DNA of 64,000 bases from Cephalotus follicularis (taxonomy: Eukaryota > Streptophyta > Magnoliopsida > Oxalidales > Cephalotaceae). This document shows positions 2,416-64,000 of the stretch, piece by piece. Every line of letters starts with the position of its first letter. The stretch's first letter is position 1. Below the pieces are notes generated by a model. It was not told the DNA's origin. It made no database searches and worked only from the letters and a program-made list of their open reading frames with translations. The stretch lies in the NCBI GenBank assembly GCA_001972305.1, contig BDDD01000263.1, positions 706,987 to 770,986 of the forward strand. The letters run 5' to 3'. The position numbers and the translations under genes were made by a program.

Positions 2416-3774
2416 TGATGGAATCGGACAAACCGAGTCCAATGTCATAAATGGACAAAAGGGATATAGGGTGTAGAATAAAACTTAAACATACAATCAT
2501 GGCAGTGGAATAACACCCTATATAACAAAAACAAGTCCATAATGACACGTCCACAGATCACATGGATCACCACAACATCTACTGAATTGAATTGGTGTCA
2601 CCATTGCAAACAATGGTGACACACAAGCATGGCATAAGGAAGAAGGACCAAGAATTATACCAGTGGGTGAAGGCTCCTTCTTTCTTTGACGCTACAAGCT
2701 TGAGTAGATTCCCTTTGATCTTCTCCAAGCCTCAGGAACAACAAACAATCCAACCAGCAAAGCTAAAGAGCATGAACTCTCTCTTTCTCACTTAGCTTAG
2801 AAAAGATAAATTGATATTGACCAATGAAGTCAATGATCAATCCACCCTATATAAGCCTTTGCTAGGTCTATATCAGATGAAGGATCACTCACAATCTGCA
2901 GAGAAATTCGAGCTCTCTATTGCCCAGCAAAAACTTAACCTTTTTTCCTCTCTTAACTTTCTGCAGAAAAATGCCTATTACTAGCCTCCATTTCTCTCTC
3001 CCAATCTCCCATTCACTTAGGATCATGGCCTTCACTCCCTGGGAGTCTGAAGCCATGATTCCCTCGTTTCCAAAACGTGCAAGAACAGGAGATGGTTGCT
3101 GGAGATAAGAGAGAAATCGTGCCCACGAAGTGAGCTCGTGCACAGGCTGCACATTCTGCTCAAAGACGTCGACGCCTTCCAAAGGAAGTCGACGCCTACG
3201 CAATGTGCCACTAAAGACATCGACGCTTTCTAAATGACATCGACGTATTTCCAAGAGTTAAGCATCGACGTCTTTCTAAAAGACATCGACGCCTTTGTCA
3301 GGCCAGTGAAGCATTAAGAGTCTAACTCTTATAGTGATCTCATGTACCCTTCGAATATTGGTTAAGTAAGATCAAGCATATGTGTTTCTACAAAATGCAA
3401 AATTCACATAACCGATATGTGACACCAAGACTCAATATGTCCAACATATTAAAGATCTAATCATTATAAGGCAGGGACCCTTTAAAATCTAGGTTAAAAT
3501 GAGAGGTATTCACAAATTACCAAAATACCCCTTGGGTCCGGTTTAGCCATTCTAAATGGTCCTCGACCAATTTAAATGCCCTCGGAATAATATCTAATAT
3601 TATCCAGATGGAAAATTAATCTAATTAATTTTTCCACACTTCATAAACCCAGATTTTCTAAGTCGTCGGTTCGCGTGCACTATAATCCCTTGTCATACTT
3701 GGCCCCGATTGAGGTCTAGGGTAAGGATATGTGTCAACCCTAGATAGTACCTCAATGGCTAAAATATCTGATCA
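2416..3774 (-). repeat. C1 3' LTR
   Basis: Left copy of the 1.36-kb repeat. It contains a TCGA-palindrome array (3162-3297) and, downstream of it in element orientation, a TATA-like CTTATATAGGG (about 2848-2858). Identity with the right copy continues 9 bp past the ATCA end (ttactagga), which a normal LTR would not do. Part of this LTR resembles the middle of the longer C2 and C3 LTRs, so C1 may use a shortened LTR of the same broad family. Confidence 0.85.
3162..3297. repeat. TCGA-palindrome array in C1 3' LTR
   Basis: Six palindromic units related to AAAGACGTCGACGTCTTT. TCGA centres at 3169/3189, 3220/3240 and 3265/3286 form three pairs spaced 20, 20 and 21 bp. The same array occurs in the other LTR at 8804-8939. 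Confidence 0.9.
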
Positions 3775-3799
3775 TTACTAGGAAAATACATAACCATTA

Positions 3800-4787
3800 C
3801 ATAAAGTAATATCATAAATCCCTACAGCTTCAGCGATGATCCTAGATCCATCCCCAAGCCGTAAGTCCAAGTCTCCAGCTCTAAGCTTTCGAACTTTTCT
3901 TAGTCCCTGCAACGAATTGCAAAGCTTAGTTCCACATCCAGTATCCAATACCTATGAAGAACTACTATTCAAAGCAAGATTTAGTTCAATCATGAACATA
4001 CCTGACGTACTCGCACCATGCGGGTTATCAGCAGAGACAGTAGCAAAAGCAACACGACAATCCTTTTTCCAGTGTCCGGTCTGACCGCACTGGAAACAAG
4101 CACCCTCAGCCACCAGCTGCTTAATTCGATTCTTGACATCGCTTCCACTAACTCCAAGCTTGCCCTCCTGGGCTGGAATCTCTGACTTTGTAGAGTCAAG
4201 ATTGGCCTCTGTTGTTCTCAACATAGAAACTAACTCAGTAAGAGTTACTTCTATTTCGATCAAGTGAAAATACTCCACAAACTGTGAGAACGTTCCAGGG
4301 AGGGATGTAAGAATAAGATCTATCTGCAGATCGTGATCCATGATAAACCCTAATTGAGTAAGCTGCTCAATCATGTTTATCATCTCCAGTCCATGATCAT
4401 GGACCGAAGCTCCCTCTGGCATCTGCGCCTTAAAGAGTTTGCGTGAGAGATTAAGCCTCCGAGTCCTAGTCCCAGCCCCATACATCTCCTCGAGATAAAG
4501 AAGTATGGCGGATAAGGTCTCAATCTTCTCATACTTGCGTTGCAGCTCCGGTGTCATCCCAAAAGGGTGATACACCGAGCATGCTCATCGTACTCCAGCC
4601 ACATGGCCAGACGATCGCACTCATCAGATGTAGGATCATCACCTAGTGATGGAGGCCCCCATTTCATCACATACGCCAATTTATTGGCCGTTAGGATGAA
4701 TTTGAGGTTACGTTGCCAATCGATGAAGTTGGGCCCCTCAAGTTTGTTTGTCGCTTGAATGCAGGACATAGCAGATTGTAAAGCCAT
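3800..4787 (-). pseudogene. gag: C1 gag and protease start
   Basis: Copia-type gag beginning MALQSAMSCIQATNKLEGPNF at 4787, with the TNKL..PNF.DW motif of the N-terminal gag domain. A frameshift near 4560-4575 moves the reading into a 207-aa frame that ends with a CCHC knuckle, CFQCGQTGHWKKDC (around 4050-4092), the nucleic-acid binding part. The aspartic-protease start (DTGCGTKLCNSL, about 3880-3935) follows. The protease is cut off just before the LTR at about 3775, and all later pol domains are missing. The gag resembles C2 gag, so the two are relatives. Confidence 0.85.
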
Positions 4788-4799
4788 ACTAGCAACCTA

Positions 4800-7194: not shown

Positions 7195-8047
7195 AGGAAA
7201 AGTAAATGGTGCACGCAGACACCTAATTACAGACCTTTAAAGATAATAAATAAATAAAATCCATCCACACATAGAAAACAATAATCTAGGTCAAAGTCCT
7301 TTTCGGGCCATACATTGTGCATAAGATCTATATTATATCCAATATAATAAAACCACAAATAAAACAAATGCCATAAATGATAACCAATTACACAATTTAA
7401 TTCAATGACTGTTAATTGATCAAACTCCCACTAAATCAAGCAATGATTTTAATTTTCCAATGTGCCAAAATGTATAAAATCCAATTTTATCAAAACCAGT
7501 TTTTTTTTTTTTTTTATAAAAGACGTCGACGCCTTTTCAAAGGGCATCGACGTGTTTTCTGGAAAAAATGAACAAAGCGTCGATGCAAAAACAGAGCATC
7601 AATGCGTTTCTCTAGAACAATTGAAAAGGCGTCGACCTTTAACAAGAACATCAACGCATTTCACAAAAATATGAACAAGACATCGACGTCTATCAAGAAC
7701 GTCGACGTCTTTCCTGGGGATTTGAACATGACATCGACGTCTACCAAGGAGGTCGACGTCTATAGCCCTATGGGCAGTTTCTGCACTTAAAAAAATGCAG
7801 AATTTAATGGTTTAGAGTATGGAATACCATTCTAGCATTCCAAAATGCACTATGCATGTTCCAAACATAATTCTAAACACACTAAAACAACATTCCCAGC
7901 ATAAAAACTTAATGAAATCCAATTTCATGCAATTTTCATTAAGGCACTTAGAAAATTTAGTTTGATCACAAAACACATCCATTGATTAAACTATTAATCA
8001 GTACATCATCTAAGGCATACATATTCAATTAAGGATGATGCGGACCG
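7195..8047 (-). other. C1 leader next to the primer site
   Basis: AT-rich non-coding leader with a poly-T run (about 7500-7515) and a TCGA-palindrome array at 7520-7765. Apart from these I see nothing gene-like. Confidence 0.6.
7520..7765. repeat. TCGA-palindrome array in C1 leader
   Basis: Ten centres in five pairs: 7526/7547, 7580/7599, 7632/7651, 7683/7702 and 7734/7753. Within-pair spacings are 21, 19, 19, 19 and 19 bp; two members are TCAA variants. Unlike the LTR arrays this one lies in the transcribed leader. Confidence 0.85.
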
Positions 8048-8058
8048 CTCTGATACCA
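8048..8058 (-). promoter_or_regulatory. C1 primer binding site
   Basis: Reads TGGTATCAGAG on the minus strand, complementary to the 3' end of plant initiator tRNA-Met, one base from the 5' LTR end. This fixes the element orientation. Confidence 0.9.
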
Positions 8059-8059: not shown

Positions 8060-9418
8060 TGATGGAAACGGATGAACCGAATCCGGTGCCAAAAATGGAC
8101 TTTGATGTGTAGGGTGTAGAATAAAACTTAAACATACAATCATGGCAGTGGAATAACACCCTATATAACAAAAACAAGTCCATAATGTCACGTCCACAGA
8201 TCACATGGATCACCACAGCATCTACTGAATTGAATTGGTGTCACCATTGCAAACAATGGTGACACACAAGCATGGCATAAGGAAGAAGGACCAAGAATTA
8301 TACCAGTGGGTGAAGGCTCCTTCTTTCTTTGCCGTTACAAGCTTGAGTAGATTCCCCTTGATCTTCTCCAAGCCTCAGGAACAACAAACAATCCAACCAG
8401 CAAAGCTAAAGAGCATGAACTCTCTCTCTTTCTCACTTAGCTTAGAAAAGATAAATTGATATTGACCAATGAAGTCAATGATCAATCCACCCTAGATAAG
8501 CCTTTGCTTGGTGTATATCAAATGAAGGATCACTCACAATCTGCAGAGAAATTCGAGCTCTCTATTGCCCAGCAAAAACTCAACTTTTTTTTCTCTTAAC
8601 TTTCTGCAGAAAAATGCCTATTACTAGCCTCCATTTCTCTCTCCCAATCTCCCATTCACTTAGGATCATGACCTTCACTCCCTGCGAGTCTGAAGCCATG
8701 ATTCCCACGTTTCTAAAACGTGCAAGAACAGGAGATGGTTGCTGGAGATGAGAGAGAAATTGTGCCCATGAAGTCAGCTCGTGCATAGGCTTCACGTTCT
8801 GCTCAAAGACGTCGACGCCTTCCAAAGGACGTCGACGCCTATGGAATGTGGCACTAAAGACATCGACGCTTTCTAAAAGACATCGACGTCTTTCCAAGAG
8901 TTAAGCATCGACGTCTTTCTAAAAGACATCGACGCCTTTGTCAGGCCAGTGAAGCATTAAGAGTCTAACTCTTTTAGTGATCTCATGTACCCTTCGAATA
9001 TTGGTTAAGTAAGATCAAGCATATGTGTTTCCACAAAATGCAAAATCCACATAACCGATATTTGACACCAAGACTTAATATGTCCAACATATTAAAGATC
9101 TAATTATTATAAGGCAGGGACCCTTTAAAATCTTGGTTAAAATGAGAGGTATTCACAAATTACAAAAATACCCCTTTGGGTCCGGTTTAGCCATTCTAAA
9201 TGGTCCTCGACCAATTTAAATGCCCTCAGAATAATATCTAATATTATCCAGATGGAATATTAATCTAATTAATTTTCCCACACCTCACAAACCCAGATTT
9301 TCTAAGTCGTTGGTTCACGTGCACTATAATCCCTTGTCATACTTGGCCCCGATTGAGGTCTAGGGTAAGGATATGTGTCAACCCTAGATAGTACCTCAAT
9401 GGCTAAAATATCTAATCA
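8060..9418 (-). repeat. C1 5' LTR
   Basis: Right copy of the C1 LTR. The TATA-like sequence of the left copy is altered here (ccctagataagcc versus ccctatataagcc, around 8491-8503). The array at 8804-8939 is conserved. The outer flank ttactaggacc passes straight into a G4 remnant. Confidence 0.85.
8804..8939. repeat. TCGA-palindrome array in C1 5' LTR
   Basis: Same six-unit array as 3162-3297 with point differences that mostly exchange CG and CA/TG. Confidence 0.9.
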
Positions 9419-9949
9419 TTACTAGGACCTTTGGTAAACTTGATATAGCCATAACAAATGTAGCACGCATCATATATAAGTAAGAATAAGATTGTTCCAT
9501 ACATGGTAAGATATAATATGACAACCCATCTAATGACTTGTCGGGTCACTATATCTAACATGTATTAGTATTGGATATGATCAAGCCCATCTTTTAGAGT
9601 ATTGAAAGGATTGTCGTTCGCGTGCAAATGGTATATTTGATTTAGTTATGATGTAGTTTGGTGCGGGCTGAACCCGAGCATATAAATTGTGATGAGATAT
9701 GAGAGTTGATCTCCAAACATATAAACTGCGGTTTATTAGGTGGCATGGAGTACGATAAACGAATCCGTCATGCCCGATTTTCGGGAAATCCTAAGGGCAT
9801 GGTTTGTAATGGTTATCCATACTGTTTTTACATATGGTTTGAGGTTTCCGTTGATATGATATGGCGCGTTCTGTCTGGATAATCTGTTTGTTTCAGGTTA
9901 GTAGGGGTTATAGATTTCGGGACGAAATCTTTTTTAAGGGGGGTGGATA
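9419..9949 (+). other. Tail of G4 internal region
   Basis: About 530 bp without ORFs between the C1 LTR and the G4 LTR. Its end reads GGGACGAAATC followed by the purine tract aaggggggtgga (9936-9947), the signature of the 3' end of a plus-strand gypsy element. The rest of the element lies elsewhere or is lost. Confidence 0.6.
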
Positions 9950-22505: not shown

Positions 22506-24247
22506 TCTATCATTCATGACATTCACGATGACAATGAAAGTCATGAATGGGTTATCTCTATAGTCTCATACAGTACAATCCATAATTCAACCCGTAGCTG
22601 TGACCCAATATCATGTATGCTTTTAACTAATAGGGACCATTGTGTAAAGGAGCTCATGGATTCACCTCCGTCAAATCAAGTAAGGATCATTTCGTAGTCA
22701 TAAATCATATTTCATATTCAATGGCCATTTTTGTTTCTATAATCCATTTTTGTGATCAATTTCCATAATCGTTTAGTTGGTCCCTATCGAGATTAGAATG
22801 AATGGAAGCGAAGTCAAATAAGGAATCTCCGCGTTCGGATATCCCGAAATGAGACCATCCTATCCACCCATTAAAAACAGTTTTGAAAACCATTTATGTA
22901 AGTTCTTTTTATTGCGGATTTTTTCAAATTTGCTGTTAAGACCTCATTTTTGAAATCCAAGGGTTAAAGATGAATTTCCATGGGTTACAAGGGCTTAGGG
23001 AGGCTTCCCATGAAATCCATTTAGGGCAAAAATCGCTTAAAATTGAAACTGGTATGAAAACAGCCATTTTTGGCGATACAGGGGCAGTAGCAGCAAAAAC
23101 AGTTTGCAATCACTTAAAACCAGATCCAAATCCATAAAAACCAGTTTCAATCATGGAAGAAAATGATTTATACTCATCATCAGTTTCCCAGTTCAACATT
23201 TATAGCATAAAAACACTCATTGATGATCAAAACAGCAATAATGCATACAAAATGGAATAATGTGGCAAATAGTATAACCTACATTTAAATAGCGATCTAG
23301 CTTGCAAAAATTGGCGGATTTGCTGCCAATGCCGAGCTGCCAGCGCTCCAAGTCGCACTGCCAAGCTCCAATGCCGAACTCTCTTCTTCTTCATCACTGC
23401 CAACCGAACTGTCAGCTCCTTGCGACAACTGATTCCATACACTGCCGCGCCAAGCCCACCGTTTTGGCCCAGTCTTCACCAGTGGCGATAACAGTGGAGG
23501 AAGGGCGGCGCTGAAAATGGAGCTCCATGCTTTGGCGTCAATGGTGAAGAGGAAATAGTGACAGTGAAGGAGAAGAAAAAAGTTTAAGGAACTTACCTCT
23601 TTCTTTGGCGCAAGAACGGCGTTAATGGCGGATTTGCCGTTAAAAATGGCGAGCTGTCAGTACTTCACGCCTCACCGCCCCTCTCTTTCTTCTTCCCCTG
23701 TCACTGCCTCTCTTTCTCCCTTTCTTCTTTTCTTCATTCTCTTCTGAAATAAACACTCTTGCAATATACAAGAGAGGGGGGGGGGGGGGGAAGTTCTTGG
23801 GGGGGTGAATTGAATATTGATGTAAATATCGGGAATTTAAAAACTTTAAAAGTAAAGAGTCAAAGGAAAGAAAAACTTCTCCGAATTTAGAGTGGTTCGG
23901 CTAACTCTTGCCTACGTCCACTTTTCCCAAGGGAGCTCCTTGAGTTTCCACTATCTCGAATTGATTAAGGCAGCAATTCGTTACATCTTACAGTTTCGTG
24001 ATTGACCTCAATCACAAGACCTTGACCTCAAGACCTTAGAGGATTCTCCTCTTTTACAAGTAATAGTGAAAGTATTTACAAGATAACCTCTCAAATAGGT
24101 TGATATGACTAATACAGCTCACAATATGAAACACTCAGATAATCTCAAAGGATAGAGCTTAGAAGCTTTTTAGAACACTATAGAGCACTTTGAGCTTTTA
24201 CACACTAGAATGTTGTTTTCTGTATGTTCTTCTGAGGTTTCAGTCTT

Positions 24248-24258
24248 CCTTATATAGG
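24248..24258 (-). promoter_or_regulatory. S1 LTR TATA box (candidate)
   Basis: CCTATATAAGG on the minus strand, downstream of the palindrome array in element orientation; the array ends about 100 bp upstream. The same sequence is in the 5' LTR at 30170-30180. Confidence 0.65.
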
Positions 24259-24347
24259 CATAAAAGATTTGTAGCCGTTGCATAAATCATGGAAGCTTTT
24301 GATTAATAAATGTGTTAGTGCAACTTTGAATTTTGTCTTCTGCTGAC

Positions 24348-24895
24348 ATAAAGACGTCGATGTCTTTTTAAAGGCGTCGATGTCTTTGATAGTTGATAGC
24401 CGTTGGAAGTGCGCATACTAGCTGTTCCATGTTTCCCGGGTCAAACCATTTAAAAAGACGTCGATGTCTTTTTAAAGGCGTCGATGTCATTTCTGCGAAA
24501 TCTCCAGCATTTGAATCTTTGAGCATCACATTGACTTCTTCTGTAGGGGTCGATGTCTTTTCTGGGAAATGCAGATAGGTCTAGAAAGACGTCGATGTCT
24601 ATGTAAAGGCATCGATGTCTTTTGTACAGATGTCGATGTCTTTGCATGTAGGGATCGATGTCTTCAATTAAAATTTGAACAGTAGCTTCTGTCACTAAAG
24701 ACGTCGATGTCTTCTTGAAAGGGATCGATGTCTTTCTATACGGACATCGATGTCATTTCTGGAAGGACAATGTCTTCATTATAATTTGATCTTGTAACTT
24801 CTGGCACAAAAGACGTCGATGTCTTTTGAAAGGGATCGATGTCTTTCTGTACGGACATCGATGTCATTTCTTGAAGGTCGATGTCTTCTCTGCAG
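24348..24895. repeat. TCGA-palindrome array in S1 3' LTR
   Basis: Seventeen centres in six clusters: 24357/24377; 24461/24481; 24531 (TTGA)/24550; 24592/24612/24633/24655; 24704/24725/24747; 24817/24836/24858/24878. Spacings within clusters are 19-22 bp. Consensus AAAGACGTCGATGTCTTT; most CG sites have TG or CA variants. Confidence 0.93.
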
Positions 24896-25003
24896 ATGAG
24901 TTTTGCTTTGGTATTGAACTTTGTAATATCTTGCACATCAAGTAAACTTGTTAAATGCAAATATGTTATCATCAAAACAAGGATTGGGACTGAATCGTCA
25001 ACA

Positions 25004-25018
25004 ATCTCCCCCTTTTTG
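25004..25018 (-). promoter_or_regulatory. S1 polypurine tract
   Basis: AAAAAGGGGGAGATT after GTCATCATC on the minus strand, adjoining the LTR start. This is the well-known Sirevirus tract. Confidence 0.9.
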
Positions 25019-25628: not shown

Positions 25629-26945
25629 TCAAGCAGCAGCAGGAGGGGCATCGGAATCGGAGTCATTGCCCGAAGTCTCTTCGCAAGCATCAATGGTCTT
25701 GGAGGCCGCGAGTTTTCGTTCCATCCTTTTGAGATGCCTCCTTACGACTTTTAGGTCGTAGTAGATGGTGTCATCGATGTTATCGAAGTCGGACCGAATT
25801 GTCACATGATCTTTTTCCAAGCTAGTGAGCTGCGAGTTGACTTGCTCAAATTTCTCTTCAAGCGAAGCTTGCATAGAGTCAAAACTAGAGCGCATAAACT
25901 CCATGATCCTATCAACATCAGTGGTGGATGAGGATCCTTGAGCTTGAGCCGGAGCCGGTACAGCTTCTTTTTGAGCTTCCCATGGAGGGTTCTCTTCTTG
26001 CTCTTCTCTTGCAATCCTTTGCACTTGATCAACTTTGGGGCAATAAGTCCAAATGCCTTCTTGTTTCTTCCACCCCATTCTATTCATACTGCTCTTGTTG
26101 TAAGTGTCCTCTTTCTTCAATTTCGTTGCAATTTCTCCTTCAAGCCGAATTTGGTGATGATGGAAGACTTTGGTGAGGATTGATCCGAAGGGTAGAACGG
26201 ATTTCTTTTGAGAGAATGCTCTTACCATAGTCTTGAGCATGAGAAGGGGAAAACAGAATTCTATCTTAGAGAGGATGCACCACATGAGGAAAGCTTGCAT
26301 CCGAGATAGCTTGGCGTACCCTCCACCGGTGGGAAGAAATTGGTGTACAATGAGATGGTGGAGGAGCCTATGATCTACTGACAATCTGTTGGTAGTCAGT
26401 GCCATATTGGGATGAATATTTGGATCATTTGGGTAAAGAATTGACAAAATTTGATTAGGGTGAAAACCCTCAACCTCCGGCCATTTTTTATGTTCAAAAA
26501 TGTATAAGCCGGTATGTGGAATATGGGGTATAGAGGCTAGAATCCTAGCATCTAGATAGACACGCTGCCCTTTGACAGAAGAGGAGAGTGCAAATTCCTC
26601 ATTAGGGCTGGATACAATCCGAAGGTTCATGTAAAATTCCTTGACCAATTTTATGTAAAAAGGGTCCTGGATTTGTACAAGAGGAAGAAGATGGAGGTTA
26701 TCTAACCAAGAAACAAAAGAAAACTCAGAGGAACAGAAATCTAAATCTATGTTCCTGCCTCCCATAACCCTTTTATCAACAAAAACGACATTTCTCAAAG
26801 GGACTTGCTCTTCGGATTCGGAATCCGATTGGAGAGCAGGGTTAGGGGAAGGCTCTCTAATCTCAAGCCTCTGCCTTTTAGCAGATTTCTTAGGCTGAGA
26901 GGATGTTGCAGCCTTCTTGTTGGCAGTACGTTTTGTCCTCGGCAT
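25629..26945 (-). CDS. Env-like / 'putative plant transposon protein' ORF, 438 aa
   Basis: Longest intact frame in the window. I start at the ATG at 26945 (MPRTKRTANK). An in-frame GTG lies four codons upstream. Residues 1-45 are very basic with KKSAKRQR, a likely nuclear-localisation stretch. Residues about 55-310 show the conserved layout of the plant family annotated 'putative plant transposon protein' (Pfam PF20167 by memory): FVSWLDNL, LVKEFYMNL, VKGQRVYLDARIL, RLLHHLIVHQFLPTGGGYA, LPFGSILTKVF. After a Pro/Ala/Gln linker, residues about 350-415 are heptad-like and probably coiled-coil (SMQASLEEKFEQVNSQL), and the end is acidic. The position between RNase H and the 3' LTR is that of Sirevirus env-like genes. 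I see no signal peptide or clear membrane segment, so a true envelope role is doubtful. Function is unknown. Confidence 0.85.
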   Translation of the reverse strand: MPRTKRTANKKAATSSQPKKSAKRQRLEIREPSPNPALQSDSESEEQVPLRNVVFVDKRVMGGRNIDLDFCSSEFSFVSWLDNLHLLPLVQIQDPFYIKLVKEFYMNLRIVSSPNEEFALSSSVKGQRVYLDARILASIPHIPHTGLYIFEHKKWPEVEGFHPNQILSILYPNDPNIHPNMALTTNRLSVDHRLLHHLIVHQFLPTGGGYAKLSRMQAFLMWCILSKIEFCFPLLMLKTMVRAFSQKKSVLPFGSILTKVFHHHQIRLEGEIATKLKKEDTYNKSSMNRMGWKKQEGIWTYCPKVDQVQRIAREEQEENPPWEAQKEAVPAPAQAQGSSSTTDVDRIMEFMRSSFDSMQASLEEKFEQVNSQLTSLEKDHVTIRSDFDNIDDTIYYDLKVVRRHLKRMERKLAASKTIDACEETSGNDSDSDAPPAAA

Positions 26946-27534
26946 TCTATCAAACACTTAGTGAACACAACTGACAAACACAGAGAGTGATAAAAACAGA
27001 CGGATTGGAGGAGATGAAAACAGTTTTTGAAGTTGAGGAAGGATACAGAAGATGTTTTTCGAACAAATAGAATGATTTTTGAAGAAAAAATAAAGAGAGT
27101 AGAAATTTTTGAAAAACTCAGAATAGGGTTAAAGTGTATAATGGGCATGAGATCGACGTTTTTATGAAGAAGTCGATTTCTGAGTTAAAGACGTCGACGT
27201 GATTCTAAAGAAGTCGACGTGTTCTTTAAAAGAACGGAAGAACTCGATTCAGAAAATGCTGCGTTTTGAAAAGCATCGACGCGATTGAAAAGAAGTCGAC
27301 GTGTTTCAGGGAAACACAAGGAGATCGATGTTTTAAAAAGAGATCGACATGATTTTCATAAGGCATAAGATTTTGCAGAAAAGAAGTCGACGTGTTTTTG
27401 TAAAGCATAGAATTTCCAGAAAAGAAGTCGACGTTTTTGTAAAACAGAAAAGAAAATAAAAAAAAAGCAGAACAATAACAATTATCACATCAAATAAACA
27501 TTCAATTAAAACAATCATTCAAACAAAATAAACA
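26946..27534 (-). other. Spacer between RNase H and env-like ORF
   Basis: Leader of the env-like ORF, pyrimidine-rich on the minus strand, with a palindrome array at 27155-27440. No ORF of note. Confidence 0.6.
27155..27440. repeat. TCGA-palindrome array inside S1
   Basis: Centres at 27194/27214, 27276/27296 and 27325/27344 (spacings 20, 20, 19 bp), plus single ones near 27154, 27388 and 27429. The flanks differ from the LTR array (GAAGTCGACGTG type), so it is not a simple copy of it. Confidence 0.85.
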
Positions 27535-28368: not shown

Positions 28369-29565
28369 TTATGTTGAAAGCTTTGGTACCCAAGTTGCTT
28401 TGGGTCCGGGAGGGTTAGTAAAAAATTTTGCTTTAGGAACCCATATAGTTCTTAATTTCAACAATTTATTTTTCAATAACAAATTTCTCTTGTTCATGTC
28501 ATTTTTCTTGCGATAGCAAGTGTGTGTAGTGTGGCCATATCTATTACAATAATTACAAGTCATGCTAGATGAGATCTTTTGATTATCCTTCTTTTCAAGG
28601 TATTTTTGAAAATATTTAACATTATTCATCTCATAATAACCTAGGCCAGCCTTGTTAAAAACACATCTTTGAAGACCTAAAAGTTTATCAAGTTTTTCAC
28701 TACTATTTGAAAATTTTGAGAAAGTCTTCTTCAGAGCATCAATTTCAACTTTTAAAGTCTCATTTTCATTTTCTAAAGAAATAGTCTTATCATCTAGGGA
28801 CTTTTTAGATAAACATTCTAATTCATGTTTTAAGCTAACATTTTCTCTATTAAGAGCTTTAATGGTCTTTTTAAGAGAAATATTTTCAAAACTAAAATTA
28901 TCAAGTAGTTCAAGAAGTTCACTTACCTCATTCTCATCTTCATCTTCATCTTCATCTTTATCACTATCGTTGATTGCCATCAATGCTATTTGTGCTACCT
29001 CTTGGTCTTTTTCTTCTTCGGAGCTTGATTCATCACTATCCGACCATGTAGCAAGCATAGCTTTCTTCTTTTTGATAGTGTCTTTTGCTTTCTTCAATCT
29101 TGGGCATTCACTCTTGTAATGTCCGGGTTTATTGCATTCGAAACAAACTATTTCATCCTTCTTTGTTTCGGATTTTGATGGGAATGTCTTCTTGAAGTGT
29201 TTGTTCCCAAACTTTTTCTTTGCTAGATATTTTTTGAATCTTCTTGTGATCAAAGCCATTTCATCGTCACTATTTTCTTCACTTGAGTCCGTTGTAGAGG
29301 ACTTGAATGCAATGACTTTCTTCTTCTTTTTATCTTGTTCTTCATCATCCTCATGGTTTTTTATGGCCATTTCATGTGTCATGAGTGATCCAAGAAGTTC
29401 TTCAAGCGGCAAGGTGTCGAGGTCTTTTGCTTCCTCTATAGCCGTAACCTTAGGCATCCAACTTTTCGGTAGACACCTAAGTATCTTTCTTACCATCTCA
29501 CTATTAGTGTAGCATTTATTCAAAGATTGTAAAGAATTAATAATATTTGTAAATCTAACAAACAT
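28369..29565 (-). CDS. gag: S1 gag, 5'-truncated, 398-aa open frame
   Basis: Structural protein of a Sirevirus-like element. The open frame starts at ATG 29565, but gag similarity continues a few codons upstream (QSENISG) until a stop. The N-terminal half of gag is therefore deleted: the primer site is only about 55 bp away. Residues 1-75 are the end of the UBN2 gag domain (ILRCLPKSWMPKVTAIEEAK, LEELLGSLMTHEM). A zinc knuckle, CFECNKPGHYKSEC, follows at residues about 141-154. Next come an acidic stretch (DEDEDEDEN) and a long coiled-coil-like part (ENISLKKTIKALNRENVSLK), then a second knuckle (CNYCNRYGHTTHTC) near residue 340 and a WVPK-containing tail typical of these gags. It could be translated but probably cannot form a normal particle. 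Confidence 0.88.
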   Translation of the reverse strand: MFVRFTNIINSLQSLNKCYTNSEMVRKILRCLPKSWMPKVTAIEEAKDLDTLPLEELLGSLMTHEMAIKNHEDDEEQDKKKKKVIAFKSSTTDSSEENSDDEMALITRRFKKYLAKKKFGNKHFKKTFPSKSETKKDEIVCFECNKPGHYKSECPRLKKAKDTIKKKKAMLATWSDSDESSSEEEKDQEVAQIALMAINDSDKDEDEDEDENEVSELLELLDNFSFENISLKKTIKALNRENVSLKHELECLSKKSLDDKTISLENENETLKVEIDALKKTFSKFSNSSEKLDKLLGLQRCVFNKAGLGYYEMNNVKYFQKYLEKKDNQKISSSMTCNYCNRYGHTTHTCYRKKNDMNKRNLLLKNKLLKLRTIWVPKAKFFTNPPGPKATWVPKLST

Positions 29566-29619
29566 ACCGGAAATGTTTTCACTTTGTAATCTCTAACAAT
29601 TAAGAAATAAGATTAACCT

Positions 29620-29630
29620 CTCTGATACCA
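29620..29630 (-). promoter_or_regulatory. S1 primer binding site
   Basis: TGGTATCAGAG on the minus strand, two bases inside the 5' LTR end; perfect initiator tRNA-Met type. Confidence 0.93.
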
Positions 29631-29632: not shown

Positions 29633-30905
29633 TGAAATAAACACTCTTGCAATATACAAGAGGGGGGGTGAATTGAATATTGATGTAAATATCGGGAATT
29701 TAAAAACTTTAAAAGTAAAGAGTCAAAGGAAAGAAAAACTTCTCCGAATTTAGAGTGGTTCGGCTAACTCTTGCCTACGTCCACTTTTCCCAAGGGAGCT
29801 CCATGAGTTTCCACTATCTCAAATTGATTAAGCCAGCAATTCGTTACACCTTACAATTTCGTGATTGACCTCAATCACAAGACCTTGACCTCAAGACCTT
29901 AGAGGATTCTCCTCTTTTACAAGTAATAGTGAAAGTGTTTACAAGATAACCTCTCAAATAGGTTGATATGACTAATACAGCTCACAATATGAAACACTCA
30001 GATAATCTCAAAGGATAGAGCTTAGAAGCTTTTTAGAACACTATAGAGCACTTTGAGCTTTTACACACTAGAATGCTTGAATATGATATCTCACTTGATT
30101 TTTGTGTAATTCTTGATGAATTGATGTTGAATTCTTGTTTTCTGTATGTTCTTCTGAGGTTTCAGTCTTCCTTATATAGGCATAAAAGATTTGTAGCCGT
30201 TGCATAAATCATGGAAGCTTTTGATTAATAAATGTGTTAGTGCAACTTTGAATTTTGTCTTCTACTGACATAAAGACGTCGATGTCTTTGATAGTTGATA
30301 GCCGTTGGAAGTGCGCGTACTAGCCGTTCCATGTTTCCCGGGTCAAACCATTTAAAAAGTCGTAGATGTCTTTTTAAAGGCGTCAATGTCATTTCTGGGA
30401 AATCTCCAGCATTTGAATCTTTGAGCATCACATCGACTTCTTCTGTAGGGGTCGATGTCTTTTCTGGGAAATGCAGATAGGTCTAGAAAGGCGTCGATGT
30501 CTATGTAAAGGCGTCGATGTCTTTTGTACGGATGTCGATGTCTTTGCATGTCGGGATCGATGTCTTCAATTAAAATTTGAACAGTAGCTTCTGTCACTAA
30601 AGACGTCGATGTCTTCTTGAAAGGGATCGATGTCTTTCTGTACGGACGTCGATGTCATTTCTGGAAGGACGATGTCTTCATTATAATTTGATCTTGTAAC
30701 TTCTGGCACAAAAGACGTCGATGTCTTTTGAAAGGGATCGATGTCTTTCTGTACGGACATCGATGTCATTTCTTGAAGGTCGATGTCTTCTCTGCATATG
30801 AGTTTTGCTTTGGTATTGAACTTTGTAATATCTTGCACATCAAGTAAACTTGTTAAATGCAAATATGTTATCATCAAAACAAGGATTTGGACTGAATCGT
30901 CAACA
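29633..30905 (-). repeat. S1 5' LTR
   Basis: Starts at the plus-strand TGAAATAAACAC and ends at CAACA (30905), then TSD tcttc. It is the fuller version of the LTR: it has the 65-bp stretch missing in the other, but one palindrome unit fewer in the TATA-proximal pair. TATA-like site at 30170-30180. Confidence 0.93.
30270..30795. repeat. TCGA-palindrome array in S1 5' LTR
   Basis: Same array as 24348-24895. The first pair has lost one unit of exactly 20 bp, and several centres differ by CG to TG/CA or other point changes (for example gtcgtagatg at about 30359). Confidence 0.92.
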
Positions 30906-35777: not shown

Positions 35778-35915
35778 TAAAGACGTCGATGTCTTTTCCT
35801 CTTTCGTACAAGGGCATCGATGCCTTCGTCTGCATCGACGTGCATGTGCATGCATTTACGTGCGCCCCTTGTTCCCATAGGCGTCGATGTCTTTACAAAG
35901 ACATCGACGCGTTTA
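35778..35915. repeat. TCGA-palindrome array 3 of solo LTR X
   Basis: LTR-start-proximal array: gacgtcgatgtctt, gcatcgatgcc, catcgacgtgc, gcgtcgatgtctttac and acatcgacgcg. Last pair 20 bp apart. Matches 50635-50785 and 48088-48220. Confidence 0.85.
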
Positions 35916-36119
35916 TCCCAAAACTGCACCGTTTTGCCTCTAATTGCATCTCTTAGAATTTCTTTAATATCTCCATCATTCCTCCTTCCAAAATCTAACC
36001 TTTTAAATTTTGGAAAGCATCATTTAAGTCAAAATTTATGCCATTCTCATTAATTCAATAATAATATTTCAATAAAATTGAAATATTACATTGTGCAAAA
36101 TCTCGGGCGTTACAGTAAT

Positions 36120-47919: not shown

Positions 47920-48087
47920 TGTAACGCCCGGGATTTTCGTTATTGTAATGTTTCGTTTAAGATGTAATCTTATGATTAAATTAATGAAAATGTTGGAGAT
48001 TTCGACTTCAATGATGTTTTCCAACTCTAAATATTGTTTTTGGGAAGGAAGGTGTATGTTAAACTAAAACGGCGCAGTTTGGGGAAA

Positions 48088-48225
48088 ACGCGTCGACGCC
48101 TTTGTAAAGACGTCGACGCCTATGGGAATAAAGGGCGCACGTGAATGCATGTACATGCACGTCGATGTAGACGAAGACATCGACTCCCTTGTATGAAAGA
48201 GGAGAAGACATCGACGTCTTTGAAA
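48088..48225. repeat. TCGA-palindrome array 1 of GX LTR
   Basis: Centres 48093/48113 (20 bp), 48162/48180 (18 bp) and 48211. The first pair is gcgtcgacgcctttg/taaagacgtcgacgcc. Confidence 0.9.
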
Positions 48226-48969
48226 AGAATGACAGGCACATTCTCCATCTGACAGAGTAACGTGCAATAGGGAAGGATTTAGGATCTTTGCAGGCGCCTT
48301 GAGGCACGGGAAGGAGACGTGTTGGGCATGCATAATGGCCTCCTGACCTGCATAACTGGAGAAGGAGGAAGAATGTAACAAATGTTAGTATGCATGCAAC
48401 CTGCAGGAAGAAGAGAAAGGGGACAAAGATGTATGCAGGAAAGGGAATGGGGAAGAGGGAGAGGACACGGGAGTGCTCTTGATTTCAGAAAGAAAGAGAG
48501 TGTTGCATGGATTAAATGCTCCTCCCTTCCCCCACTGTTTCGGCTTAAAACGCCAAAGGAAAGGAAGAGGAAGAAACCAGGGAGTGTGAGAAGGAGAGAA
48601 CCACCGTTGTTGAGCATATTGAAGCTTGAATCTTGGAGCTCCTGGGATTACAACTGTGGAAGAATCTTGGAGCTACTGAGGCCGAAATCTTGGAACACAA
48701 AGAGGTGGACTTCCAAGGTTTCTAAGTTGAAACCAGAGGTAGGGGAAAGTGATGATCTTATACATGCATTTTGAGTTTTAAGATAATGAAATGCCATTGA
48801 TGAACTGCATGATTATGGATGAATTGAAATCTTTGGATTTGTTGTGATGACTACTGTGATGTACGGAGTAACCATGAATGTGTAATTTACATGAATATTC
48901 GAACTGGTTTATGTAAAGGATGGTTTGGTAATGGCCTGGTGTGTTAAACTATGGAGAAAATGTTCTGGG

Positions 48970-49145
48970 TTGGATAGACGTCGACGCCTACATAAAGACG
49001 TCGATGCCTTTGTGTGTGAATGCAACAGAAGTCGATGTTTGAGTAAAGACATCGATACCTTTTCTGGGTATTTGTAGAACAGTAGTGTGATGCCTTCGTG
49101 TGTGCATGCGAAAGACGTCGATGTTTTGTAAAGACATCGACGCCT
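48970..49145. repeat. TCGA-palindrome array 2 of GX LTR
   Basis: Pairs gacgtcgacgcc/gacgtcgatgcc, aagtcgatgttt/acatcgatacc and gacgtcgatgttt/acatcgacgcc, spaced about 19-21 bp. Confidence 0.88.
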
Positions 49146-49354
49146 ATTCTTGGTACTTGTGACAATAGTGCTGTGGGTGGTGAAGTGCCCATTGGTGGTT
49201 GCATGTTTTATTCGTGAATTGATGTTCTGGTTACATATTCTCTTAACCAGTAGCGTGACTTACACGGTGAGAGAATGAGATTTGTTTGTGTGAAGATTTA
49301 AGGGTCGGATTCTCCCCCTAGAATCGAGATTGCGAACTGATACCTCCTAGTATC

Positions 49355-49485
49355 ATAAAGACAACGATGTCTTTTGAAAATCATCGATGTCTTTCGTCCT
49401 GAAATGCTTGGGAATAACGTCATGAAATGTTGGTGCCTAGGGAAAATACGTCGACGCCCAGGGGATAAGCGTCGACACTTATTCC
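49355..49485. repeat. TCGA-palindrome array 3 of GX LTR
   Basis: acaacgatgtctttt/catcgatgtcttt and acgtcgacgccc/gcgtcgacac pairs, more decayed than arrays 1 and 2. Confidence 0.8.
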
Positions 49486-50634
49486 CCTGTTTGGAAGGGT
49501 TTTACTCGAATGGGACCCGTTGGACCCGAATGACTCTAGAAACAATCCTAGATGCATTCTGAGCATATGTTTGCATTGTTATTGAACCGTGAATTGATTT
49601 GTGGTTGATTGCTAAAAAGTGTTAACTATTTTAAAAGCTTGCATGATTATTAAAATCATTAATTGTACTAAAATGTATATTTGCCAAAAATATATATATT
49701 TTCAAATGACTGGGGAAAGTATTTTCCAAAGACAGTGAAATGTTTTAAGGATTGGCTATACAATCGAACTGTATTGTTTTAAGTTTTATAACTTATCACA
49801 ACCTGAGAACGGAGTAATATGTTTTAAACAAATATATTTGATCAAGTGATTATATTTTATTGCTTGACTTGTACTGTACGGTGTTTGTGCTTGTTGATTA
49901 TTAGCCGCTGGCTAGTAACCTATTGATTGTTTAGCCGTCGTGCTAAGCAACCTGTACGGAGGACTTGCCTCAAACCGTTCGCAAACGGGGATGGGGTAAG
50001 AGTGCATGACGTTGCGGCCAGGAGGTGGCGACGGTGATGACGTCTTGTTTGTCTGGTTCCTTTTGGGACATACTTACTGCTTGTGTTGATGTAGCCTTAT
50101 GAAGTTATACTTGTACTGTGAACATGCATATACTTTTACATATGTATATACTGAGATATATATACTGCGATATATATATATACTGTACTGCATCATGATG
50201 CATTCATTCATGATACTCATTGTCATATACCTCGAACTGCATTTATAAGTTTATTCACTTAGCCGAGTGAGGACAAAGGCTAATCCCCTACTGTAACAGA
50301 TTGATGGAGTGGGATTTGATACGGAGCACGCAAGGAGACTTAAGGAGAAGACTGAATTGATTCTCTTATTTTATGTTATCTGGATTAATGAACAATGATT
50401 TTGTTATTTGGGTTTTTGTAACATGGGACTTGTAACGCCCGAGATTTTTGCACGATGTGATATTTCAATTTTATTGAAATATTATTTTTGAGTTAATGGG
50501 AATGGCATAGACTTTGACTTAACTGATGCTTTCCAAAACTTAAAGGGGTAGATTTTGGAAGAGGGAATGATTGGGATAATAAAGAAATTCTAATTGATGC
50601 AATTTGAGACAAAATGGTGCAGTTTTGGACTAAA

Positions 50635-50785
50635 CGCATCGACGTCTTTGTAAAGACGTCGACGCCTATGAGAACAAGGGGCGCACGTAAATGCATGAAC
50701 ATGCACGTCGATGCAGACAAAGGCATCGACGCCCTTGTACACAGAGGAAAAGACATCGACGTCTAATAAAAGACGTCGACTCCTT
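50635..50785. repeat. TCGA-palindrome array 1 of second solo LTR
   Basis: Centres 50639/50659 (20), 50708/50726 (18) and 50756/50776 (20). The first pair is catcgacgtctttg/taaagacgtcgacg. Confidence 0.92.
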
Positions 50786-51544
50786 TAATTAGGATGTCAG
50801 TCACGTTATGAACTGAGAGAATAACGTGCGAGGGGGAGGGAATCCAAGGCGTTTGCAGGCACCAGATGCAACGTGTTGTGCATGCTGGGATGTTACCAGG
50901 CATGCCCCAGAATGTGTCCTCAACATTGTGCATGCAAAGGGCACACATCTTCATCTGCAAGGGCAGAAAACCAAGAGGAAAAGAACAAAAAGAAAGAAGA
51001 AAACGGGGAGAGAAGGGAATGGAGAAATGGAACCTGTAAATGCATGCAACGGGAACAGTGAAGAGGGGAGAGAGTTCCCTAGCATAAATGCTCTCTCTTC
51101 CCCCTCTAGTTTGGTTAAACACCCGAGTGTTAACAAGGAAAGAAGAAATAGTGAGTGAGGAGAGGGAGTCCTGCCATTGCTGGACCAGTGGAGCTTGGGA
51201 GCTTGGAGGTGAAAGCTTGCAGCAATGGGACAACCTTGAAGCTGCTGTGATCAACTACTGGAACACAAAGAGGTGGACTTACAAGGTTTCTAACTTGAAA
51301 CCAGAGGTAGGGGAAGTATATGTGCCTTTTGAGTTCAAACTAATGTCTTGCCATGAATAAAATGCATGAATGGCATGCCTGTTTTGGAGTTGGCTTGGAT
51401 GTTTTGTCTGATGATATGAACACCTGGTTAAGTGGATTATGCACGCATGTTGAATTCTGTGTGAACCCCATGATGGACTGCATGTATAACTAGATTTTGT
51501 GTTCATGTTTGGGTGTTGTATGGAAGAGACAGTGCTCTGGACTC

Positions 51545-51640
51545 TTAAAACGTCGATGCTTTTGTGATAAGTATCGATGTCTTTATACGATAAGGCAATA
51601 GACGTCGACGTCTTAGTTAAGCGTCGATGTCTATTTCAAA
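51545..51640. repeat. TCGA-palindrome array 2 of second solo LTR
   Basis: Two pairs: acgtcgatgctttt/gtatcgatgtcttt and gacgtcgacgtctt/gcgtcgatgtct, spacing about 18-21 bp. Confidence 0.88.
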
Positions 51641-51831
51641 CATTGCAGAACTGCAACGGTTGCTTCTGGACTTGTGGACTTTTGATGGGTTGATGATTTG
51701 GTTATACATATGGATAACTTGTGGTGCGTGTTACGCCGTAAGTGGTGTATCTGGGAAGTGTATGCACGAATGGAGGATGGATTCTTCTTTGAAATGGAGT
51801 TTGGTTGTGGTGACACCTTCTGGTACCATTT

Positions 51832-52105
51832 AAGCATCGACGTCTATGGAAGACATCGATGTCTTTGGTTGCCATGCATCAGGTCTTGTACGTAACGCGA
51901 GGACGTGTTAAGGTTCCTACCTTAAACGTCGATGCGTTGTGATGAACGTTGACGCCTAAGGGTTTTGGGTTCGTAGGCATCAACGCCTATACAAAAACAT
52001 CGACGCATTCGTACTGTTTCAAGCTGTGACTTTGGGAATGAACCTCGACGCTTTTGGGGCAATGGACATCGACGCATTTTGGAAAGACATCGACGTCTTT
52101 ACTCC
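51832..52105. repeat. TCGA-palindrome array 3 of second solo LTR
   Basis: Pairs including gcatcgacgtctat/acatcgatgtcttt and gacatcgacgcattt/agacatcgacgtcttt, with decayed members such as catcaacgcc and cgttgacgcc where CG has become CA or TG. Confidence 0.88.
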
Positions 52106-52639
52106 TGGGTTGTATGGTTTGACCCATTTTGGACCCGATAGCTCCGGAACGATTCTAGAAGCGACCCTAGGCATGTTTGAGCATATGGTTGCATTTAATA
52201 CTGCTGTGATTTGTTTTGTTGTGATACCGCATGATTTCTTAAATGATTTAGATTTAAGAAATATGTATATGATATTGTGTGGAAATATATATTTCCTAAA
52301 AAGGACTGTACAAATGATTTCAAATGCTTGAAATTATGTATACGGAAATAAGTAATTTCAAAGGATTAAATACCGTGCAAAGACTAGTTATATATTTGAA
52401 CAAATGTGATATTGACAAGTATTTTATACATAATAAATTACTTTGAAAATGGATTATGACGGAAATGAATATTTTCGAAAAAAAGGATTGCGAAACGGTT
52501 TCACATAATTAAAATTATGTTATACGGACATGAGTATTTTTGAAAAGGATTGAAAAGGATTCTTATATATTTGAACGAATATATATATATGTTTCGAGAT
52601 TTTATACTTATAAATTTCTTGAGAAAGACTGTGAAATTT

Positions 52640-52980
52640 TGATAACTACTAAACTCTGTTGGGTAAGTAGCTGAAACGGTAAACCATGTTTAAAAGGACT
52701 GATGCCAATTTGGGATGTTTTGATTTCAAGTATTTCTTATATGTTAATTACTTGTGATGGCTTGTTGGGTTACTAAACCCTGTTGGGTAAGTAGCCAGGA
52801 ATTCCACTACTGAGCTCTGTTGGGAAAGCAGTTGGAAGTTCCGTATACGGTAGCCACTAAGCTCTGCTGAGTAAGTAGCTAGGGTTTCCCACGAAATGGT
52901 TACTAAGCTCTATTGGGCAAGTAGCTAGGGACTCCCATTTGGTTGCTAAGCACTATTGTGTAAGTAACCGGTTGTTGAGC
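52640..52980 (+). repeat. TTACTAAGCTCTGTTGGGTAAG repeat, about 6 units
   Basis: Plus-strand equivalent of 33405-33745: units TACTAA.CTCTGTTGGGTAAG followed by TAGC at about 52648, 52773, 52815, 52855, 52907 and 52945. Confidence 0.85.
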
Positions 52981-53186
52981 CTGGGTGTCAGCAACCTTGA
53001 TCTGGCTTGATGTGACACGTAGTATGGGATGCGTGTTACGTTGTTAGTTCGGCTTATGTTAAAGGCTTCCGCAACTGATATATCTGTTTTAAAAGGTTTA
53101 AATTTATCGTAAATTGGATAAGCCGGGTTATTTATGTTAATTGCTACCACTTATATGTTGTTTGGAAAACGGGGTGTGACAGGACT

Positions 53187-60430: not shown

Positions 60431-60435
60431 TGGCC

Positions 60436-61901: not shown

Positions 61902-62299
61902 ATTCTCCCCAAAGGAATCTCGTCCCAAGATTCTAGGGTCAAAACAGGTGAGGATATGTCACTTCCGCATCATTTTCCCGTTCTCATGTAGCTTTTCTAA
62001 TTCCATGTCATTACCACAATACTTCCTCTACCGAAACATTTATTCCTCGACTGTTTCACCTTTCAATCAAGGATTCGGACAGGAGTCTCGAAATAGCTCA
62101 TGTTCGGTTCCAACTAAAAAAATTTCCAATGAAGTGCATGAGAGGGGTTGAGCTGGTTCTTTCTTAATAATAAACGTGGGAGACATTCTGTACATTCGAT
62201 AAGTTGGAAAGCAAGGCAAGTTGGTAGGCCGTCATACCTACTCTTCAAGCCTCCCAAAAGCTCCTACAAAGCGAGGAGGCAACTTTCCTTTATTGTTGA
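61902..62299 (-). pseudogene. pol: G3 integrase C-terminal remnant
   Basis: Minus-strand gypsy integrase end with stops: GKLPPRFVGAFGRLEE-like sequence near 62250-62290 corresponds to the KLAPRYIGPFEVLER motif, followed by a decayed tail to the purine tract. G5 inserts just upstream of it. Confidence 0.75.
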
Positions 62300-64000
62300 T
62301 GTCACACCCCGCCCTTCGATTCCGTTAGGCACAAGCATATATGGTGATATCAGAAATAAATATAATATTCCAGCATTCCATTCAACAATTCAAATAATAT
62401 AAGTTGAAGCATTCAATAAGCCGGAATATAAAATACAAGCCATCCGCACGCAGCCCATACTACGTGCAGACACAATCCAACAATATCCTTATACATAAGG
62501 AAGTACAACAACATCACGAGGTATGAACCGTTCATTACAATACAGTACATCATAATAAAATAACAACCTTAAGATAGAAAGAAGCTCTCCAAAAGCTTCA
62601 GCAGCACCCTCCAACGTCTTCACCTAATCTGAAATTGTAGGGGTTAGCCGTTGTCCTAACTTGGCTAAGTAGGAAGATAATGCATGCTAAGGAATATATA
62701 AATGCAACATGTATGACATTTTATATTGAAAAATATATTTAATAGTGTTCCAATATATAAGCAACCATGCCAAGTGGCCATAGACAATACAATGCAAGAA
62801 TACCGCACAAGGGTACAATGAATTCATACTGTGGTTTTGGTGTCACATGTCGCTAACTCCTAGCACCAACTGTGCACCACCTAACTATCACCCTACACTC
62901 CGAAGATGGTAGATAAGGTAACATTTACTACCGGCATTAGTGGGCAGTTTAACAATAAGATCTGCATTGCAGACAGTTTTGGTGTGTACTCTAGCCAACT
63001 CCTGGTACATAGGACCACCTCCGTTAGCCAGTGACATCTGCCATCACTCGACTAATCGGCAGTAATATAGACAATCAATTCAATCAATTCAGTATAAATA
63101 TTACATATATCAATAGTATTCAATATAAAAGTTGTTTTCTTTAGAAACATTTAACAATTCATTGATCGTACATCTCATAGGAGGAAAATGATATCAATAC
63201 AATAGTGGTTCCCAGTTAGAGAACAAATCAGTAGGTACCTCTCATAGGAGGAAAATCAGTAGTTCTTTTAACAATAAGCTTTCATTTGAAAATAATAGTT
63301 GATATCATAAATGGTGCATATAACACTTAGTTGGTTCGATCATTGAAATATAAATGGTAGTGGTGCTAAATAACACCAAAACAGTATATACTAATATAAC
63401 AGTAGCATATACAACAATAATAGTAAAAGGCAGTAGCAATTCAAGGGATTTAGTAAGGTAATTAGTATACCATAGTCATTCATGTGCAACTCTCACAAGG
63501 AGTGCATACGTGTTTAGTTTCTGTAATGTAGTTGTATATAAGTCCAGGATTGATTGTTCTAATCATCCGTATGGAGGCCAAGTTAATTACATTTAAATTG
63601 AGGCCCAACAGAACCTATATCAACATCTTTACCCAAGACAGTCTACTGCTCTCAAGAACAGTCGGCTGTTTCGATTGAGTAGTCGACTGTTTTCTCTTAA
63701 TAGTCGACTGGATAGGTTGAGTAGTCGACTGTCATGAAGAACAGTCGAGTGCTTTGCCCTGAAAATGCAGGCAGTAGCAGGTTATGTATTTCAATATTCA
63801 ATTTCTAACCTAAACAACACATGCAATCAAACAGAAAACAACCATACATGATATGCATAATATATCTTCCAAAAACATGTCACTACCCCTACCTCAATTG
63901 CTATCCCAAGATCAATTGGGTTTGGTCTCTCTCTTCGAGTTTCCAAGCCTTTTCACCAACCAATCTTCCAAAATCCAGCAGAATTTAATCTATAACATGC
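62300..64000. mobile_element. G5: LTR start, runs off the window
   Basis: TGTCACACCCCGCCCTTCG begins an LTR of gypsy type, inserted in the G3 integrase tail. It carries the block GGGGTTAGCCGTTGTCCTAA (62638-62659), like family X, and a TCGA array at 63636-63755. The other end is outside the window, so orientation (probably minus) and full type are unknown. Confidence 0.75.
63636..63755. repeat. ACAGTCGACTGT-type palindrome array in G5
   Basis: Six centres: 63642 (TCTA), 63662 (TCGG), 63683, 63704, 63725 and 63745. Spacings are 20, 21, 21, 21 and 20 bp. The flanks differ from the GACGTCGACGTC arrays, but centre and spacing are the same. Confidence 0.92.

Follow-up and report, generated by a model that had tools for sequence, protein, structure and literature searches.

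Arrays of one palindromic word at a spacing of about 21 bp in copia and gypsy retrotransposons of Cephalotus follicularis

Palindromic repeated motifs (RMs) have been described in 13 Sireviruses, where they lie upstream of the TATA box and of the ENV gene (Bousios et al. 2010, PMC2829016); the section of that paper devoted to them calls them Sirevirus-specific, with none in classic retrotransposons. Here we describe palindrome arrays in one window of Cephalotus follicularis DNA, the 64-kb stretch at positions 706,987 to 770,986 of contig BDDD01000263.1 (assembly GCA_001972305.1); all counts cover this window, and coordinates are numbered from its first base. The window is a nest of long terminal repeat (LTR) retrotransposons in plant DNA, and three families in it have arrays: S1, a Sirevirus-like copia element; C1, a copia element with a gag unrelated to that of S1; and X, a Del/Tekay-like gypsy family represented by three LTRs. 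What is new is the presence of Sirevirus-like palindrome arrays with one word common to the copia and gypsy superfamilies of one host; arrays themselves are already known in one retrotransposon genus, and it is the sharing of a palindromic word by unrelated families that is unusual. Among the open-licence literature matches listed, the literal motif forms gave no plant-retrotransposon paper by title, and palindromes or motifs shared among LTRs gave no title on cross-family sharing. We consider it probable, though well short of certain, that a single DNA-binding protein occupies the arrays, which would be site clusters acting as upstream promoter elements, either convergent or very old in origin.

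A first-pass annotation had listed nine stretches with arrays of a near-palindrome, AAAGACGTCGACGTCTTT, whose TCGA centres lie about 21 bp apart. Arrays are present at all of these coordinates and the nine stretches are real, but they amount to only five arrays in three families: self-blastn shows that C1 and S1 each contribute both copies of a duplicated LTR, and that the X stretches are three LTRs homologous to one another. The 18-mer AAAGRCRTCGAYGYCTTT, with up to three mismatches, has 84 matches, compared with a mean of 0.25 and a maximum of 2 in 100 dinucleotide shuffles; 82 of them fall inside arrays, and the other two are at 14055 and 29410. The string AAAGACGTCGACGTCTTT is valid as a consensus, although its literal form equals none of the 84. 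TCGA occurs 251 times (about 180 in Markov sequences), and 55 pairs of TCGA are 19–22 bp apart, against a null mean of 2.1 and a maximum of 8 in 200 Markov sequences. Masking X1, X2 and a single LTR from every duplicate pair leaves 31 such pairs versus 1.5 expected (maximum 5), and the proposed excess of spacings near 21 bp is thus borne out in the window. The arms are palindromic as well: a mean of 3.96 of the 7 arm positions match at 114 array sites, and 1.99 at the 137 TCGA sites elsewhere.

Spacing was analyzed with 46 adjacent gaps of at most 60 bp, taken from the C1 LTR, C1 internal, S1 LTR, S1 internal and X3 arrays so that no LTR copies were included. Twenty-seven gaps are 19–22 bp and eight are 29–33 bp, with none at 34–40 bp; the remaining 11 comprise four of 41–45 bp, four of 49–52 bp, and three of 18, 24 and 25 bp. 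Gaps longer than 25 bp cluster near multiples of 10.5 bp (n=16, R=0.59, P=0.005 versus uniform draws), which is informative because abutting 20–21-bp units alone do not account for such gaps; the evidence is modest, since a gap of 41–43 bp may also span two units whose shared central site has decayed. Nor are the S1 LTR gaps all independent events, because the tandem repeats of that LTR (a 111-bp unit in 2.7 copies, plus 20–22-bp units) include a higher-order repeat that supplies part of the spacing. The earlier suggestion that successive sites lie on one face of the DNA is consistent with these distances, and helical phasing is supported, if unproven.

Constraint is seen between X1 and X3, which were compared with motif sites ascertained in one copy only. 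Ascertained in X1, motif bases differ at 30 of 304 positions versus 505 of 2397 elsewhere (P=1e-6); reverse ascertainment gives 24 of 269 versus 511 of 2432. Picking sites that are still motif-like in one copy biases such counts somewhat toward conservation, and when both classes were picked by the presence of CG in the same copy the CpG comparison gave P=0.03 and 2e-5. TCGA is kept at 15/17 and 15/15 aligned motif sites, versus 1/6 and 1/3 outside them. The changes also differ in kind, with transitions making up 28 of the 30 motif changes and 289 of the 505 others (P=3e-5). The same bias appears among sites: at the four positions flanking the core, 58 non-redundant sites have 96 transitions and 2 transversions, whereas the other arm positions have 48 and 92, and for all 93 sites in seven arrays the corresponding ratios are 161:10 and 93:160. 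This contrast, in which the flanks exchange purine for purine (R/R) and pyrimidine for pyrimidine (Y/Y), holds separately in C1, S1 LTR, S1 internal, X1, X2 and X3.

When the two LTRs of a single insertion are compared, no significant difference separates motif from other DNA. Motif CpGs are kept in 33/41 cases and other CpGs in 27/41, which is not significant (P=0.21); mismatches in the S1 LTR pair are 9/270 in motifs and 14/944 elsewhere (not significant, P=0.07), and in the C1 pair 4/108 and 55/1257 (P=1). Constraint therefore seems to act on replicating lineages. Protection within hypomethylated islands was considered as a cause of conservation and found no support, because motif CpGs are not significantly better kept between same-insertion LTRs, although the numbers are small.

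TATA-like boxes lie downstream of the arrays in S1 and in X. In S1 the sites occupy LTR positions 123–644 of about 1270 with the TATA box at 727/747, and CTATATAAG is the sole TATA-like cluster found in both LTRs downstream of the array. The first TATA-like box in X1 and X3 (TATATATTT) is 196 bp downstream of the last site of the main array, and in X2 it is 185 bp after the last TCGA and 219 bp after the last motif-like TCGA. By position the arrays would be promoter-upstream elements firmly in S1, less firmly in X, and weakly in C1 and in the internal arrays.

Several points weigh against promoter-linked binding sites under selection. The TATA-like boxes of X are weak evidence because each X LTR contains 7–10 TATA-like matches, no canonical TATA was found after the C1 LTR array, and there is none between the S1 internal array and the start of the open reading frame (ORF) about 200 bp away. 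In the more distant pair X2/X3 constraint is less marked (P=0.0003 and 0.0015) and transitions are not significantly favored (P=0.16 and 0.28). The choice of R/Y positions was made with the data in view, although the contrast is valid array set by array set, and the phasing test is small, at 16 gaps. The gypsy element that encloses S1 and X1 (LTR parts 21381-22439 and 39774-40838, 93%) has two TCGA per copy and no array within the aligned part, so that not every element needs one. Finally, the data come from one 64-kb window, and the word might be commoner or rarer genome-wide.

The mechanism we propose is that one sequence-specific protein, most probably a dimeric transcription factor of the host, would bind the palindrome, and that arrays in the U3 (unique 3') region of the LTR would act as upstream promoter (enhancer) elements, switching the elements on. 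With two or three helical turns between sites, bound proteins would share one face of the DNA, possibly with cooperative binding, and the S1 variant array may serve as an internal promoter element ahead of the extra ORF. Three unrelated families of one plant would have converged on the site, or acquired it at so remote a time that nothing but the letters under selection is left. Binding by a protein, its host origin and its activating effect are steps we infer. If the same word does serve unrelated families, a common factor, and not ancestry, would decide which elements become active together, and this would offer a way into the question of why several families at once overrun certain hosts. 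The 2010 question of what binds the Sirevirus palindromes becomes testable, and because the grammar is conserved (fixed TCGA, R/Y-tolerant flanks, CTTT arms, and a 20- and 31-bp pitch) it offers a precise probe for protein screens.

Among the alternatives, the one that survives best, though we hold it to be unlikely, is that one array was copied between families and then spread, the copying having occurred while elements were nested, through template switching or gene conversion. Opportunity exists in that S1 and X1 both lie inside one gypsy element, and a cross-superfamily transfer of an LTR segment between RLG_Quinta and the copia element RLC_Gisela has been proposed in einkorn wheat (in the part of PMC11302176 that treats these elements); the enclosing gypsy element itself, as noted, is without an array in its aligned LTR parts. 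Descent was assessed in 32 between-family comparisons with motifs held and spacers shuffled. In a first control, with 60 whole-spacer shuffles, 4/32 comparisons fall at a fraction of 0.02 or less (about 1 expected), which favors exchange. In the second and stricter control, with local spacer shuffles, all TCGA held and 300 shuffles each, the numbers are 1/32 at 0.02 or less, 3/32 at 0.05 or less, and 16/32 above 0.5. This outcome is close to chance, and outside the motif the families resemble each other little more than the shuffled controls do. One comparison, S1 internal against the X3 reverse strand, stands out in both controls (score 47, control mean 37, fraction 0.003, 54 columns), but as one among 32 it is too little for block transfer. 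The X copies among themselves are far above controls; within an element, the LTR array resembles the internal array no better than controls do, which also speaks against copying. The first-pass view that the array regions resemble each other in nothing but the motif fits, or nearly fits, the 3/32 comparisons at P≤0.05, and the block exchange among nested elements that it had also entertained finds little support in the spacers. Either the sites arose separately, presumably under selection for one specificity, or an exchange would have to be so old that the spacers were replaced.

Next in plausibility, and quite unlikely in our estimate, is that the palindromes count through the structures they form, RNA hairpins or cruciforms that would feed small-RNA production and silencing by the host. 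This has been proposed for maize Sireviruses, whose LTR palindromes are described as hotspots of small-RNA mapping in the relevant part of PMC5311732. RNA of the arrays does fold far better than shuffled sequence, with z of -8.2, -10.9 and -3.3 for the three stretches folded, and array transcripts could thus be a source of small RNAs; any palindrome array folds strongly, however, and small RNAs may be a mere consequence. The paired arm positions vary independently (4/13, odds 0.81, P=0.8; 6/11, odds 0.63, P=0.37), and a selected hairpin was rejected as the main cause because the arm covariation it would call for is absent and hairpin-breaking A-C pairs are as frequent as expected. A further candidate was a bZIP C-box (GACGTC), which the first-pass annotation had raised as the possible core. 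Its ACGT core is found in 42 of 86 sites (those of the 93 array sites that passed an arm filter), compared with 43.2 expected from independent base frequencies, and with ACGT no commoner than chance the C-box was dropped as the identity of the arrays. The half-site was also set against what we take to be the motifs of auxin-response, NIN-like, IDD and other plant factors, with nothing worth claiming.

An anti-silencing role, which we regard as slightly less likely than the hairpin reading, would have a transposon-encoded protein such as the product of the S1 PF20167 ORF bind the arrays and lift silencing, much as VANC does on VANDAL elements, with C1 and X exploiting it. The S1 variant array does lie directly 5' of that ORF, and a nuclear signal is predicted in an Athila protein of sunflower that is partly similar to PF20167, according to the portion of PMC11728184 that describes it. 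Against this, no DNA-binding domain was detected in the S1 protein: Pfam gives only Transposase_32, and a PDB search with its alignment gave three weak matches, all to the C-terminal part, the best with an E-value of 0.08. VANC21 motifs, moreover, stand in one orientation, and the arrays here are palindromic. The ORF has 364 relatives at E≤0.001, and the 120 listed are all from Cephalotus follicularis, 70–93% identical in the covered part. A reading frame through the S1 array itself gave nothing at E≤10 among 77 candidates in a protein search.

A bolder version, and a long shot, is a host-wide retrotransposon switch in which one protein, possibly a PF20167 protein spread by S1-type elements in hundreds of copies, would act on converged copia and gypsy families and read T and 5-methylcytosine alike. 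Such methyl-blind reading would fit the flanks, where the four positions tolerate almost only C/T and G/A swaps; if true, the protein would still bind methylated, silenced LTRs. Neutral tandem duplication of a short functionless unit, for which the 111-bp and 20–22-bp repeats of the S1 LTR could be cited, is scarcely credible given that X1 and X3 keep motifs better than spacers, that three unrelated families follow one R/Y grammar, the 30–31-bp gaps, and the fact that hardly any spacers are in common.

The coordinates of the elements and arrays are given in Table 1.

Table 1. Positions of array-bearing elements and their parts in the 64-kb window.
Feature	Coordinates	Strand	Basis or remark
C1 3' LTR	2416..3783	-	self-blastn, 95% copy of 8060-9427; orientation from primer binding site (PBS) at 8048
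C1 3' LTR array, 6 sites, gaps 20,31,20,25,21	3162..3297	-	
C1 copia-type gag fragment (PF14223, zf-CCHC)	3952..4584	-	
C1 internal (leader) array, 8 TCGA sites; TATAAAAAA directly after, at 7518	7519..7765	-	
C1 PBS, reverse complement TGGTATCAGAG, adjoins 5' LTR	8048..8058	-	same primer site as S1
C1 5' LTR	8060..9427	-	self-blastn
C1 5' LTR array, 6 sites, gaps as in 3' LTR	8804..8939	-	
S1 3' LTR	23745..25003 (end within one base)	-	self-blastn, shared LTR ends
S1 3' LTR TATA box CTATATAAG	24249..24257	-	103 bp downstream of last palindrome
S1 3' LTR array, 16 TCGA sites, partly 111-bp higher-order repeat	24348..24895	-	
S1 polypurine tract, sense AAAAAGGGGGAGA	25005..25017	-	precedes 3' LTR
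S1 extra ORF, 442 amino acids stop to stop, PF20167 Transposase_32, envelope-like position	25629..26957	-	
S1 internal array with variant arms (11 TCGA sites), immediately ahead of extra ORF	27153..27431	-	
S1 copia-type gag (PF14223, zf-CCHC)	28369..29592	-	
S1 PBS, reverse complement TGGTATCAGAG	29620..29630	-	adjoins 5' LTR
S1 5' LTR	29633..30905	-	self-blastn; element flanked by target-site duplication (TSD) TCTTC
S1 5' LTR TATA box CTATATAAG	30171..30179	-	103 bp downstream of last palindrome
S1 5' LTR array, 14 TCGA sites	30270..30795	-	
X1 solo LTR, Del/Tekay-like gypsy, TSD GTAAT	32703..36114	-	self-blastn, LTR ends
X1 arrays	34464..35915	-	
X2 LTR, related gypsy element; arrays 48086-49485	47920..49605	+	start clear; X1 similarity traced to 49605
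X3 solo LTR, TSD GGACT	50431..53181	+	self-blastn, LTR ends
X3 arrays, two blocks 50632-50786 and 51546-52105	50632..52105	+	
X3 first TATA-like box after arrays, TATATATTT	52286	+	
Separate TCGA array, other arms (CAGTCGACTG), ~21-bp pitch	63660..63755 (array 63671-63745)	.	element not assigned

S1 spans about 7.2 kb and has gag and the PF20167 ORF, with no reverse transcriptase ORF of at least 150 amino acids. It looks like an amplified element with gag and the PF20167 ORF and without a long pol ORF. Its candidate lineage features are the copia gag, a Met-tRNA-type PBS and the AAAAAGGGGGAGA polypurine tract, with no pol for placement in a tree; we take PBS and polypurine tracts of these types to be marks of the Sirevirus lineage. 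Each LTR holds eight or more copies of the palindrome, most of them in its upper half and upstream of TATA, as is characteristic of Sirevirus RMs, and extra copies lie upstream of the gene in the ENV position, with arms that differ from those of the LTR motif. The internal array had been credited with the same word as the S1 LTR; a TCGA array is indeed present, but its word is a variant, AAACACGTCGACTTCTTT in the sense orientation.

The C1 and S1 gag proteins align only over a 17-residue zinc knuckle. The C1 gag has its nearer counterpart within the window in the gag at 20386-21084 (127 residues aligned, 53%), and 56 of its 59 matches bear a Cephalotus name. No pol ORF was seen in C1, and a target duplication was looked for and not found.

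X1 and X3, at lengths of 3412 and 2751, have the 3' end GGGGTGTGACA, with GGG at -8 to -10. GGG at this position is given as the U5 (unique 5') att type A mark of Del elements in section 14 of PMC4029996, and both X1 and X3 combine it with a long LTR. We call the family Del/Tekay-like from its LTR ends and its long LTRs, X1 and X3 being without genes. Sirevirus membership does not apply to X, which has gypsy features, namely the Del-type LTR ends and, adjoining X2, an integrase ORF with an SH3_Tf2-1 domain. X2 is more diverged than X1 and X3. A 112-bp piece at 46045-46156 is 95% like the start of the X2 LTR, as if a 5' LTR and much of the element had been deleted. X1 appears, from the order of the parts, to sit between the RNase H and integrase-like sequences of another gypsy element.

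Other repeats were noted in the window. The array at the end of the range listed in the first-pass annotation has the TCGA core and the pitch of about 21 bp reported there, but its arms (CAGTCGACTG) are different. Tandem TTCGTAA-type near-palindromes with listed periods of 11–22 bp are found at 12633-12950, perhaps an analogous array with another core, and at 41571-41684 a 25-bp unit in 4.6 copies holds CGGTCGATGATCCG, a partial palindrome with TCGA. A 173-bp tandem duplication, 97% identical, is at 57715-58060, and a related copy at 42707 matches both units. Rfam at gathering thresholds gave 0 matches in the window. The paired pattern was found in 4 viral and 6 prokaryote contigs, at one matched place each, which we take as chance.

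Each of the closest described systems resembles the Cephalotus arrays in part. The CpG islands of Del LTRs are likewise a CpG-containing regulatory part, but the passages of PMC4029996 on them mention no palindrome and describe eudicot Del LTRs as without a CpG island. QuinCent, as presented in the relevant part of PMC11302176, is also an LTR feature common to a gypsy element (RLG_Quinta) and a copia element (RLC_Gisela); it consists of 162 bp of homologous sequence and is linked to the placement of nucleosomes, whereas the arrays here are without clear block homology. The VANC targets of VANDAL DNA transposons are, in the account of them in PMC5735166, short motifs tandemly amplified in non-coding parts, and their occurrence in the unrelated element AT9TSD1 is a precedent for sharing; the VANC21 motifs differ in being non-palindromic, in one orientation, and bound by the element's own protein. 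The Sirevirus RMs come nearest. As set out in the RM section of PMC2829016, they have many palindromes per element upstream of TATA and mostly upstream of the ENV gene, a layout that S1 fits closely, and some have TCGA centres (Vitis CGGTCGACCG, Tnd-1 ACAATCGATTGT). By the same section, AAAGRCRTCGAYGYCTTT is absent from a list of 13 motifs in which all but one have a CGG-CCG core, the RMs begin 200–400 bp into the LTR whereas the S1 sites begin at about 120 bp, and no regular helical spacing of the kind seen here is mentioned. The Cephalotus word also differs from the RMs of that account in extending beyond a Sirevirus-like element, to a gypsy family and to a copia element with another gag, which may lie outside the Sireviruses.

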